From Candidatus Rokuibacteriota bacterium (lineage in GTDB: Bacteria > Methylomirabilota > Methylomirabilia > Rokubacteriales > CSP1-6), in assembly GCA_003220225.1 (NCBI GenBank), contig QHRU01000054.1, positions 1 through 56,280 on the forward strand: a DNA stretch of 56,280 nucleotides. Direction: 5' to 3'. This document shows positions 45,796 to 49,409 of this stretch, one piece after another; position 1 is the first letter of the stretch, and each line of letters begins with the position of its first letter. The position numbers were made by a program, and so were the translations under genes. Under the pieces are notes generated by a model. That model did no database searches and had not been told where the DNA came from. It worked only from the letters and a program-made list of their open reading frames with translations.

Positions 45796-45869
45796 AGGCG
45801 CGCCACGGGTTCCCCGGGGCGCGACGAACGTTTGGGGGTATGGGGGCCATGTCGGGGCCCCCATGTTCA
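45796..45869 (-). repeat. Double-hairpin 3'-end element, copy C
   Basis: Hairpin 1 is CGCGCC (45799-45804) with GGCGCG (45818-45823) and an inner CGGG-TTC-CCCG. Hairpin 2 is ATGGGGGCC (45840-45848) with GGCCCCCAT (45856-45864). The stop codon of the DUF362 gene (45869-45867) lies two bases before hairpin 2 on the minus strand. It shares the linker CGAACGT followed by a G-run with copy B. Confidence 0.8.
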
Positions 45870-48515
45870 ATAGGTATCGAAGAGCCGGCCCCACCCCGTC
45901 CCCGCGAACGCGCGGATGCGCGCGCGGCCCACGGTCGGGTACCAGAGCAGGTCGTGGTAGACGTTCGACGCGAACGGCGCCCACACCATCAAGGGCGAGT
46001 GCAGCAGCAGGCGCTTCAGCGGCTTGAGCGGTCCGCGGCGGATCAGCTGGTCGCCCCAGATCACGAGCGAGCGCGACGTCGTGAAGCCCATGTTCGTGGC
46101 GGCCGCGTCGACATCGCCGACGATCTCGATGTCGCGCGGGTCGGCCACGCCGAGGCCCCGCTCGTGGCACATCGCGAGGTAGCGGATCGAGAGCGGGTCG
46201 AAGCCCATGATTTTCGCGGCCATGGCGTCGATGGCCACCTGGTCGGACGAGGCGAGGATCAGGTTGCCCTCGCGCGGGATCATCGTGCGCGGCCCGGCGC
46301 CGTCGCCCATGACGGTGGCGTCCATCACGGCCAACATCCCCGGGTGCAGTTCACGCTGCATGTACATGAGGTCGACCATGACCTCGTGGATGAACTCGTG
46401 CGCGTAGTGCCGGACCTCCTTCAAGAGGCCGCCGAACGAGTTTTTGATCGCGCCGGTGGTCTGGGAATGGCCGTGCGTGTTGTGCAGAATAATCCCGTTG
46501 CCGATGAACGAATGAGTGTTCTCGACCGATAGGTCGTACAGGAAGGGCACGTCGGCGGGGTCTACGCGTACCTCTTCGACCCGGTCCCACGCCAGATCTT
46601 CGCTGGCCAGAAATCGTAGATATTCGAGTTCCTCGGCGTATCGGCCGTTGCGGTCGAGAGACGCGAAACGCTCGATGAAATAGCGCACGATCGGCCGAGT
46701 CGGCTCCCTATAACCGTTCTCGATGGTATTCACGGAACTAGCGCGACCAGCACTCTCGTGCGTGAGGCCCAGCCCCTCTCGTATCATACGGAACAGCGCC
46801 GGAGCGACTGGAACCGTGTCCCAGTTGCTCGGACGCTTGCCTACCCGCCGCCGGGCAACCAATCGCTCGAGGTTCCGCTGCTTGTGCGCGCACCGGAAAC
46901 GGATGTGTCCGGCGAGCGCGATGACGTCGTCCGCATAGATGCCGATCTGCTCGTACGGCAGCTTCTGGGTCATGCGGCCATTCGTCGCCCGCGAATAGGT
47001 CGTGCGACGAAATGCGACGATACCCAGGCGTGAGAGGAGCATTTGGACTTGTGAAGCGAGCCGAGGACTCTTCGAAACGGCGTACGCGCCTGTTCGAGCA
47101 TCGACCGTTCCATCCCCGTCGAAATAGGCCTGAAGGAATGCAGCGATCTCCTCGTCAGGGCACTTGAACAGAACGTCGGGTACGGTCTTCGTGGCCGAGT
47201 TCGTCGGGACCGTGAAGCCTAGGCTCTCGAAGAAGGGACGCAGATTACGGGCGTCGAAATAGATCTCGTTGCCGCGGGTTCGCGGCTCGACACCGAAGAG
47301 CCGCCGGGAAAGGTCGATATAATCGAGGCGGACCTCTGGGTCAGTGTTTGCGACCGACACCCGATACGAACCGTTCGCCTCGTAGGCGTAACCCTCGGCC
47401 GTGAAATAGCCAATCCAGCGCCAGAACTCGATCGAGGTTCGCTCGGGGGCGGTTGCCCAAATGCGACGCCAGCGAGACTGGATACCGTATCGGTGGACGA
47501 CCGAGCGAATGCCCTCCCAGTGGGCGCCGCGCTCGGCCGCGATGGCGGTAATGGTCTTCCCGGCTAGGTACTCGCGGATGATCGAGCGCTGCGCCTCACA
47601 CGAGTAGCGACGTCCGGGCCGAATAGGCAAGCGTTCGACGTCGATCGCCTCGTGTCCCAGCAACGGCACGCGCGGCAGCGGCTGGCTCGTGCCCCTGACC
47701 CTGATGCGCCGCGCGATGGCGATCCGATCCCCGCTCTTCAGCTCGACGGCCTTCTTCCATCCTTCGGGTGTCAGGAACGGGTGGCGACTCGATGTGATCA
47801 CCTTACGACCGGTGCGGCTGCGTACGGTCCACATCACGCCATCGGGTATCGGCGTCCTCCAGAAATGGGTCGCATGTCCGGGTGTGAGCGATGCACCGTC
47901 GAGGGCGACGACCCGCACCTCACCCTCGCTGACGATGTCACCGTCGGGCAGCACGCGCGATGGTTCACGCAGCTGCCACTCTTTGACGAGCGCCTCCGCC
48001 CGCACCACGCTGCCGTCGGCCAGGACGATCTCGGTGTCGGGATGGACGCACTTGACCGTCGGCGCGTGGAGCACGTTCTTGCCGAGGTACATCTTCGGGA
48101 TCTCGATCCCCTCGGGAAAGATCTGGTTCAGCTTGAGCAGCGGACTCTTGAACGGGTAGACCGTCCACTCCACGTCCGGCAGCGGGATGAACGGCAGGCC
48201 GTGACGCTGGAGCACCGGCGACCACTTGTTGTTCCGACAGCCCTCCACCGGATCGGTGACCACGGTCTTGTTCTCGACGGGGAAGATCCGACGGCGCTCG
48301 TAGCCGTCCTCGAGCAGCGCCGTGAGCACACCGTCCACCTGCCACGGCTGGCTCGAGCAGGCCGGAAAGTACTTCGTCCACGAGAGGTTCAGCTTGACGA
48401 TCAGATCCTGGTCGCGCGGCAGCACCCGGTCGTACTTCACCAGGCGCATCAGACGGCCGTAGTCGGCGACGACGGTCTCGGGGCGGGTGCGGAGAACGGC
48501 GACCTGACTCTTCAC
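45867..48515 (-). CDS. DUF362 domain protein interrupted by an intein
   Basis: The 882-codon gene encodes a 358-residue DUF362 protein split by a 524-residue intein. The N-extein (residues 1-155) ends NVLHAPTVK; the C-extein (680-882) resumes THGHSQTTGAIKNSFGGLL, restoring the conserved DUF362 segment. The DUF362 role is poorly defined; some members carry Fe-S clusters, but no ferredoxin-type Cys cluster is visible here. Start is GTG at 48515, 16 bases after the UbiA gene stop, with no clear Shine-Dalgarno. Splicing would be needed for activity. The neighbours point to an envelope or polyprenyl pathway. Confidence 0.92.
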   Translation of the reverse strand: MKSQVAVLRTRPETVVADYGRLMRLVKYDRVLPRDQDLIVKLNLSWTKYFPACSSQPWQVDGVLTALLEDGYERRRIFPVENKTVVTDPVEGCRNNKWSPVLQRHGLPFIPLPDVEWTVYPFKSPLLKLNQIFPEGIEIPKMYLGKNVLHAPTVKCVHPDTEIVLADGSVVRAEALVKEWQLREPSRVLPDGDIVSEGEVRVVALDGASLTPGHATHFWRTPIPDGVMWTVRSRTGRKVITSSRHPFLTPEGWKKAVELKSGDRIAIARRIRVRGTSQPLPRVPLLGHEAIDVERLPIRPGRRYSCEAQRSIIREYLAGKTITAIAAERGAHWEGIRSVVHRYGIQSRWRRIWATAPERTSIEFWRWIGYFTAEGYAYEANGSYRVSVANTDPEVRLDYIDLSRRLFGVEPRTRGNEIYFDARNLRPFFESLGFTVPTNSATKTVPDVLFKCPDEEIAAFLQAYFDGDGTVDARTGAYAVSKSPRLASQVQMLLSRLGIVAFRRTTYSRATNGRMTQKLPYEQIGIYADDVIALAGHIRFRCAHKQRNLERLVARRRVGKRPSNWDTVPVAPALFRMIREGLGLTHESAGRASSVNTIENGYREPTRPIVRYFIERFASLDRNGRYAEELEYLRFLASEDLAWDRVEEVRVDPADVPFLYDLSVENTHSFIGNGIILHNTHGHSQTTGAIKNSFGGLLKEVRHYAHEFIHEVMVDLMYMQRELHPGMLAVMDATVMGDGAGPRTMIPREGNLILASSDQVAIDAMAAKIMGFDPLSIRYLAMCHERGLGVADPRDIEIVGDVDAAATNMGFTTSRSLVIWGDQLIRRGPLKPLKRLLLHSPLMVWAPFASNVYHDLLWYPTVGRARIRAFAGTGWGRLFDTY
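46479..48050 (-). mobile_element. Intein with LAGLIDADG homing endonuclease and two HTH-like modules
   Basis: This 524-residue in-frame element has all splicing blocks. Cys1 opens block A (CVHPDTEIVLADGSVV). Block B is VITSSRHPFLT with Thr86 and His90. The C-terminal blocks are VPFLYDLSVENTHSFIGNG and IILHN with penultimate His523 and Asn524. The first C-extein residue is Thr. The endonuclease has two DOD motifs, WRWIGYFTAEGYA (210-222) and AAFLQAYFDGDGTV (303-316). A resolvase-like helix-turn-helix (about 150-190) precedes it and an XRE-like segment (about 415-463) follows. Sample lines inside count 57% G+C against near 68% outside, consistent with lateral origin. Confidence 0.92.
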
Positions 48516-48530
48516 GACCGAATCATTCTA

Positions 48531-49409
48531 CTACTGCGCGCGCGTGCCGTAGACGATCAGCAGAACGGCGGCGACCCAGCACGCGGTGTTGATCAGGAGC
48601 GCGCGGTCGTTGAGGAACAGCTCCGAGGGGCTGCCGCCGAGCTGCCGGCGGTAGAGGAGATAGAGGTACCGGAAGATCCCGTACAGCACGAAGGGCAGGG
48701 TGGCCGGCAGCAGCTGCGTGTGGAACTTCGCCACCGTCTCCGGCGACATCGTGTAGAGCGCGTAGGCAGTCACCGTGGAGGCGGTCACCACCGCGATCAT
48801 CTGGTCCAGCAGACCCGCGTTGTACTCGGCGAGGATCGGGCGGTGCCGCGCGGCCTCGGCCCCCAGGGCCAGGTACTCGTGGCGCCGCTTGCCGAGGGCC
48901 AGGAACAGCGCGAGGAGGATCGTGCAGATGAGCAGCCAGCCCGAGATGGCCACGTCGATGGCGAGCGTCCCCGCCAGCGCGCGCAGCACGAAGCCGACGG
49001 CGACCGTGAGCACGTCGACGATGACGATGTGCTTGAGCCACGTGGAGTACGCGGTGAGCAGCACGACGTAGGCGACGGCCACCAGCAGGACGCTCGTCGA
49101 GATCCGGGCTGCCGCCACCAGCCCGGCGGCGACGAGGGCGATGGCCACCCCGAGCGCGACGCGGATGGGCAGCCGCCCGGCGGCGACGGGCCGCTCGCGC
49201 TTCTTGGGATGCAGACGGTCCTGGTCCCGGTCGGCGACGTCGTTGACGAGGTACACCGCACCCGACAGCCCGCAGAAGATCGCGAAGGCACCGAGGGCCG
49301 GCCACACGGCGGGCGTGAACAGCCGCTGGCCGAACACGAGGCCGGCGAAGACGAACAGGTTCTTGACCCACTGCCGCGGCCGCAGCGAGACGAGGACGGC
49401 GCCCAGCAT
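48531..49409 (-). CDS. UbiA family prenyltransferase, decaprenyl-phosphate phosphoribosyltransferase-like
   Basis: The 292-residue membrane protein opens with LRPRQWVKNLFVFAGLVFGQ and carries the two Asp motifs NDVADRDQDRLHPKKRERPV (first) and the weaker YSTWLKHIVIVDVLTVAVGF (second). The RPRQWVKN start and HPKKRERP are typical of the subgroup that transfers phosphoribose to a polyprenyl phosphate. About eight helices are visible. It lies 6 bases after the UDP-sugar dehydrogenase stop and 16 before the DUF362 gene. A lipid-linked pentose for surface polysaccharide is plausible. Confidence 0.88.
   Translation of the reverse strand: MLGAVLVSLRPRQWVKNLFVFAGLVFGQRLFTPAVWPALGAFAIFCGLSGAVYLVNDVADRDQDRLHPKKRERPVAAGRLPIRVALGVAIALVAAGLVAAARISTSVLLVAVAYVVLLTAYSTWLKHIVIVDVLTVAVGFVLRALAGTLAIDVAISGWLLICTILLALFLALGKRRHEYLALGAEAARHRPILAEYNAGLLDQMIAVVTASTVTAYALYTMSPETVAKFHTQLLPATLPFVLYGIFRYLYLLYRRQLGGSPSELFLNDRALLINTACWVAAVLLIVYGTRAQ

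Follow-up and report, generated by a model that had tools for sequence, protein, structure and literature searches.

A LAGLIDADG intein in a Rokubacterial DUF362 gene and a possible footprint of host escape from homing

Introduction

According to published work (PMC2814812, PMC3229294), the location of inteins at conserved sites stems in part from the difficulty that hosts have in mutating such sites, and an earlier survey likewise held that immunity does not evolve readily where the insertion site is conserved (PMC2814812). An apparent intein in a DUF362 gene of a soil bacterium, recovered in a Candidatus Rokuibacteriota genome, raises the question of what becomes of such a site in hosts that remain free of the element. 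The window, by which we mean the whole 56,280-nucleotide stretch of DNA that was analysed, holds one interrupted copy of the gene, and we compared it with occupied and empty alleles elsewhere. Taken alone, the intein adds a new example to a familiar type of element; its added interest comes from the empty alleles, in which hosts seem to have mutated the site repeatedly at residues fixed in other phyla, sparing the adjacent His and Lys. If true, this would be a natural, family-wide trace, visible at the protein level, of how hosts escape an intein.

A full-length intein interrupts a DUF362 gene

The reading frame and its parts are as follows.

45867..48515, minus strand: DUF362 precursor gene, interrupted by the intein; 882 codons open, GTG start; PF04015 at residues 680-767
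48051..48515, minus strand: N-extein, residues 1-155; adjoins the C-extein in inteinless orthologues
46479..48050, minus strand: intein of 524 aa, residues 156-679, from Cys1 to His-Asn, with Thr at +1; PF14890, PF14528 (twice), TIGR01445 and TIGR01443; six more complete relatives at the same site
45870..46478, minus strand: C-extein, residues 680-882; PF04015; 93% identical to an inteinless congener

A Pfam profile search of the 882-aa open reading frame placed Intein_splicing (PF14890, E 1.3e-19) and two stretches of LAGLIDADG_3 (PF14528, E 7.7e-20) in the element, and the NCBIfam models intein_Nterm (TIGR01445, E 7.3e-10) and intein_Cterm (TIGR01443, E 3.5e-08) recognised both of its ends; these matches are far above chance. 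DUF362 (PF04015) was matched at residues 680–767 (E 4.2e-17, 63.3 bits against a cut-off of 24). An earlier note, made from the letters of the DNA, had placed a 524-residue intein at 46479–48050, with Cys at its start, His-Asn at its end and Thr as the next residue; these coordinates are exact, and Pfam and NCBIfam agree with them. It had also claimed that removal of the element restores a 358-residue DUF362 protein, which is borne out by inteinless orthologues, which are about 358 aa long. Because these orthologues are continuous across the junction and of that length, the predicted spliced product, a 358-residue DUF362 enzyme, is right. In inteinless G002 C616, the stretches that match residues 1–155 and 679–882 (92% and 93% identity) directly abut in the DNA.

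Could the insert instead be a native DUF362 domain or an assembly artefact? The earlier note had itself named a failure of inteinless homologues to align across the junction, and a native domain shared by the family, as findings that would speak against an intein. The alignment is continuous at 92–93% identity, the insert is absent from the best 80 of 215 orthologues in a genome collection, these 80 coming from Rokubacteria, Acidobacteria, Aminicenantes, Zixibacteria, Nitrospirota and others, and the same insert occupies the same bond in eight separate genomes. Nothing spoke for a native domain or an artefact. Continuous inteinless orthologues rule this explanation out, and we give it a negligible probability; the element is confirmed as a full-length LAGLIDADG intein in a DUF362 open reading frame. 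In the open literature searched, we found no publication that combines an intein with DUF362; the kind of element is familiar, and the insertion site is new as far as the literature searched shows.

Splicing and endonuclease motifs

Within the element the following motifs were located.

48012..48050, minus strand: splicing block A, CVHPDTEIVLADG; kept in all same-site inteins
47778..47840, minus strand: splicing block B region, ...VITSSRHP (S-x-x-H); S-x-x-H-P-F-L-T-P in seven inteins
47487..47624, minus strand: helix-turn-helix-like segment between the splicing and endonuclease domains; HTH_Tnp_ISL3 E 0.027, a weak match below the Pfam cut-off
47391..47414, minus strand: LAGLIDADG motif 1, IGYFTAEG, with acidic Glu374; GYFxAEG in seven inteins
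47109..47135, minus strand: LAGLIDADG motif 2, LQAYFDGDG, with acidic Asp468; DGDG in seven inteins; PF14528
46479..46568, minus strand: splicing blocks F and G, ...FLYDLSVENTHSFIGNGIILHN; TIGR01443 E 3.5e-08; conserved

The element has the make-up of a class 1 intein, with Cys1, block A CVHPDTEIVLADG, S-x-x-H, a penultimate His, a terminal Asn and Thr at +1. The splicing blocks and the two LAGLIDADG motifs described in the earlier note are all present, with one correction: block B is S-x-x-H (SSRH) and not T-x-x-H. All seven complete same-site inteins retain Cys1, S-x-x-H, the terminal His-Asn and the acidic residue of each LAGLIDADG motif, and dN is well below dS in the intein and in its endonuclease domain (for example, 0.19 against 1.68 for G000–G065), a pattern consistent with maintained function. 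The intein thus looks competent for splicing and is probably active, and the helix-turn-helix-like segment is a possible DNA-recognition region.

The best PDB sequence match was the endonuclease PI-PkoII (2cw7, E 6.4e-20), and an NCBIfam model of a replicative helicase with intein matched at E 3.3e-27. Like LAGLIDADG inteins of the DnaB and PI-PkoII type, the DUF362 intein has a LAGLIDADG endonuclease with two motifs set into its splicing domain; it differs from them in host protein, in insertion site and in the extra helix-turn-helix-like segment ahead of the endonuclease.

The insertion point and a probable LarA-like motif

The intein lies at the bond K155|T156 of the spliced protein, one residue before H157, the first residue of a conserved motif.

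46443..46475, minus strand: H157-x9-K167 motif of the spliced protein (precursor residues 681-691); invariant in 55 orthologues; aligned by profile with LarA H174/K184

DUF362 and the LarA family both belong to Pfam clan CL0471 (PMC11770544). For G002, an inteinless orthologue, the AlphaFold model (mean pLDDT 88) gave its best Foldseek matches to LarA-like structures (9q3j, E 7e-6, and also 7s91 and 6d6z), with a probability of 1.00 and E values of 7e-6 to 3e-4 at TM scores of only 0.40–0.45. A profile of diverse DUF362 members aligned with LarA homologues (P 1.4e-8), and in this alignment K-T-H...K-N falls on LarA H174/K184, which are the catalytic His and the cofactor (NPN-binding) Lys, respectively (PMC12611868, PMC7583248). 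The match depends on the diversity of the profile: a shallow DUF362 profile gave no match to LarA, and the addition of close orthologues moved the register by two. A search of PDB sequences with the DUF362 profile returned nothing meaningful. By predicted fold and by profile, DUF362 is a distant relative of LarA, the nickel-pincer racemase. The likeness to this superfamily comprises the distant fold match and, with the profile of diverse members, an H-x9-K spacing that falls on H174/K184; identity is only about 12%, and H174 and K184 are the only LarA catalytic and cofactor residues for which an equivalence was considered. LarA also has a catalytic H108, a nickel ligand H200 and the NPN cofactor. 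The equivalence of H157 and K167 to this pair is likely rather than proven. The earlier note had suggested that the insertion point marks the active centre of the family; it is plausible that the intein adjoins this centre, given its position next to the aligned motif, and the K-T-H...K-N motif presumably serves catalysis in DUF362.

A conserved UbiA-family neighbour

Directly upstream of the interrupted gene lies a second gene on the same strand.

48531..49409, minus strand: UbiA-family gene of the decaprenyl-phosphate phosphoribosyltransferase type; NF008977 E 6.1e-83; 15 bp upstream of the DUF362 gene

Counted by tblastn, a UbiA-family gene lies near the DUF362 gene at 56 of 80 orthologous loci (L032–L111), including 34 of 56 outside the order; across several phyla it is usually immediately upstream, at 14–134 bp. 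This arrangement suggests, without proving it, that the DUF362 subfamily may act on a polyprenyl-phosphate sugar in a pathway common with its UbiA neighbour, and a LarA-like epimerase role would be our guess. Insertion point, LarA-like fold and conserved neighbour together offer a testable active site and pathway for this DUF362 subfamily.

Distribution and probable mobility among Rokubacteria

All Rokubacteriales genomes in the comparison seem to be metagenome-assembled, and some are incomplete. Of the 60 genomes of this order, 8 have an intein at the same bond, in one piece in G000, G065, G023, G016, G077, G025 and G032 and split over two contigs in G074. The eight carriers represent seven genera of a single family, and inteinless congeners exist in five of the seven. 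On a tree of the host protein from which the site was left out, the seven complete rows require six changes, with a mean of 6.5 for shuffled labels, and the placement of carriers on this extein tree is indistinguishable from random. Pairwise identity between carriers is 51–74% for inteins and 83–89% for exteins, G016/G077 excepted, and GC3 is 0.64–0.78 in the intein against 0.90–0.95 in the exteins. Synonymous divergence is also higher in inteins than in exteins; we set this excess aside as proof of transfer, since GC3 differs so strongly between the two.

The exception, G016/G077, combines inteins that are 98.5% identical with exteins at 94.1%. A sliding scan resolved a tract of about 1.6 kb at about 99% identity, with about 92% around it, which starts inside the intein and ends about 200 bp into the C-extein. 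We dropped this tract as a case of homing because of its start inside the intein and the presence of another such tract nearby; it is evidence of recent recombination rather than of homing itself. The second tract (L139, 6000–7650) has about 98% identity against about 92%, lies about 2.5 kb from the intein and points to general recombination between these two species.

The same distribution might reflect old vertical inheritance with repeated precise loss, as all eight carriers fall in one family and G016 and G077 are sisters on the extein tree. This history would require many exact deletions, yet empty alleles have substitutions at the site and no indel scars; nor does it account for the random-like scatter of carriers or for an intein GC3 mismatched with that of the host gene, and we regard it as improbable. 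We infer instead that the intein moves horizontally among Rokubacteria, the case for homing itself coming from the patchy distribution and the intact catalytic acids. Viral contigs encoded nothing recognisably related to either the host protein or the intein, and relatives of the intein on phages and plasmids were only about 26% identical over about 60% of its length.

Empty alleles vary at the insertion site

Across the two parts of the site we compared 29 empty Rokubacterial alleles with the seven bearers whose intein is complete and with 55 orthologues found outside the order.

48051..48068, minus strand: 5′ half of the inferred homing site, H150-A-P-T-V-K155; hypervariable in inteinless Rokubacteria, near-invariant elsewhere
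46476..46478, minus strand: +1 extein residue Thr680 (T156 of the spliced product); Thr in 8/8 bearers, Val in 13/29 empty alleles, Thr in 55/55 outside the order

Outside the order 106 columns are invariant, and 95 of these are unchanged within it too. Changes in empty alleles at outside-invariant columns number 35, of which 27 fall within residues 150–156, against 2 in the best non-overlapping seven-residue window elsewhere. Counted as steps, column 156 (T to V) has 11, column 150 (H to Q) 10 and column 153 (T to S or C) 5, followed by a column with 3; recombination may inflate these counts. Column 154, which is 89% V outside the order, holds eight different residues in the empty alleles. 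Mean pairwise identity over residues 150–156 is 0.59 among empty alleles and 0.95 outside the order; for the rest of the protein it is 0.82 and 0.69, respectively. Where the ancestral site reads PTVKT, the variants in Rokubacteria include TCKV, TQKV, SVKT, TMKT and TVKV, and K155, H157, G158 and H159 are unchanged in every empty allele.

The combination H150-P152-T153-V154-T156 is found in all eight bearers (the seven complete ones and G074), in 49 of 55 orthologues outside the order and in none of the 29 empty alleles. A Fisher test on bearers against empty alleles (7/7 against 0/29) gives 1.2e-7, a value that overstates independence, since only three phylogenetically independent contrasts lie on well-supported branches, all in the expected direction (p 0.25).

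The main rival to an escape from homing is a relaxed constraint limited to the motif and unrelated to the intein, which would merely need the ancestral sequence in order to insert. Such relaxation would likewise predict the difference between bearers and empty alleles, and at residues 147–149 the order does differ from outsiders in bearers and empty alleles alike. But the loosening would have to be confined to the residues at the point of the intein while four neighbouring residues stay fixed, the retention of the ancestral combination by none of the empty alleles is left unexplained, and the exchange of T for V at 156 takes two base changes with no Ala or Ile intermediate seen. We consider relaxation unlikely, if the most serious of the alternatives. 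Less probable still is that splicing alone holds Thr+1 and positions −1 and −2 in bearers while empty alleles drift. This would account for Thr+1 in all bearers and for the tolerance of Val in empty alleles, and has a parallel in the +1 Ser/Pro contrast at the Haloferacales MCM-d intein (PMC10643990); it leaves unexplained the changes at H150, P152 and T153, three to six residues upstream, and the same columns never drift in the 55 intein-free orthologues outside the order.

Target-site escape from homing thus seems the best reading of the variation at residues 150–156, and it forms part of a broader account that we hold to be very probable: a mobile class 1 intein would excise itself and home into empty DUF362 alleles, and the empty alleles would have survived through site changes that spare the putative catalytic residues. 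The intein would be translated inside the enzyme and excised by Cys1/Asn524/Thr+1 chemistry, as its intact motifs suggest, with restoration of the 358-residue enzyme. Its endonuclease would cut inteinless alleles at PTVK|THGH, beside the probable catalytic His, and repair would copy the intein into the cut allele. Within its host range, the empty alleles that persist would then mostly be those with changes at tolerated residues of the site, from −6 to +1, the putative catalytic residues being left untouched. Third codon positions at the site vary freely among bearers, as expected of an endonuclease that is indifferent to synonymous changes; escape from it would then require amino-acid replacements. 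The change of Thr+1 to Val should additionally block splicing of any inserted copy: Val lacks the nucleophile that class 1 inteins require at +1, and Val+1 alleles therefore could not be expected to splice it out. We lean towards the more specific proposal that replacements in the probably catalytic motif confer resistance to the endonuclease (with Val+1 making an inserted copy unspliceable) and that resistant haplotypes such as TCKV spread between genera by recombination.

Two further observations concern single residues. The Cys154 alleles (L010, L011, L018, L038, L046 and L049) all use the rare codon TGT, although GC3 of the gene exceeds 0.9 in the carriers measured, which suggests that one Cys154 haplotype may have spread across genera by recombination. 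G023 (L003) has Glu at the invariant Lys−1 (TVE|T), and after splicing its enzyme would be without a residue that every other orthologue examined retains.

Comparison with known cases of resistance

In the mcm gene of Haloferacales, empty alleles with Pro instead of Ser at +1 resist invasion by the MCM-d intein, and this resistance was put down to failed splicing, as the endonuclease still cut (PMC10643990). The DUF362 alleles are alike in having a different +1 residue when empty, but their changes span −6 to +1, which suggests that they evade cleavage too. Barzel et al. (2011) include in their model of the homing cycle an empty allele that is less susceptible to homing at the cost of an altered conserved motif (PMC3229294); where that model is theory, DUF362 would provide a natural sequence pattern that fits it. 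In yeasts, host alleles resist the LAGLIDADG nuclease of WHO elements at FBA1 through sequence differences (PMC7282813); unlike the intein, a WHO element leaves the host protein uninterrupted and brings a resistant FBA1 end along. Bearer, empty-ancestral and many empty-variant alleles are all available, so that resistance to homing, and what it costs the enzyme, can be measured directly for DUF362.

Related inteins in the phylum

The closest relatives found are Rokubacterial SMC inteins, with 30–36% identity across a large part or the whole of the length, which sit in the Walker A motif at GPNGCGK|SN (L132, L133, L134, L136 and L137). When we tested this site as a second case, the surroundings of the intein in empty SMC alleles showed no diversification at the protein level comparable to that in DUF362, so the escape effect is not general; the Walker A motif of SMC may be intolerant of change. 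Further inteins of the phylum were seen at L029 and L031, with flanks that, judged by eye, resemble a dCTP deaminase and a DnaE-type polymerase.
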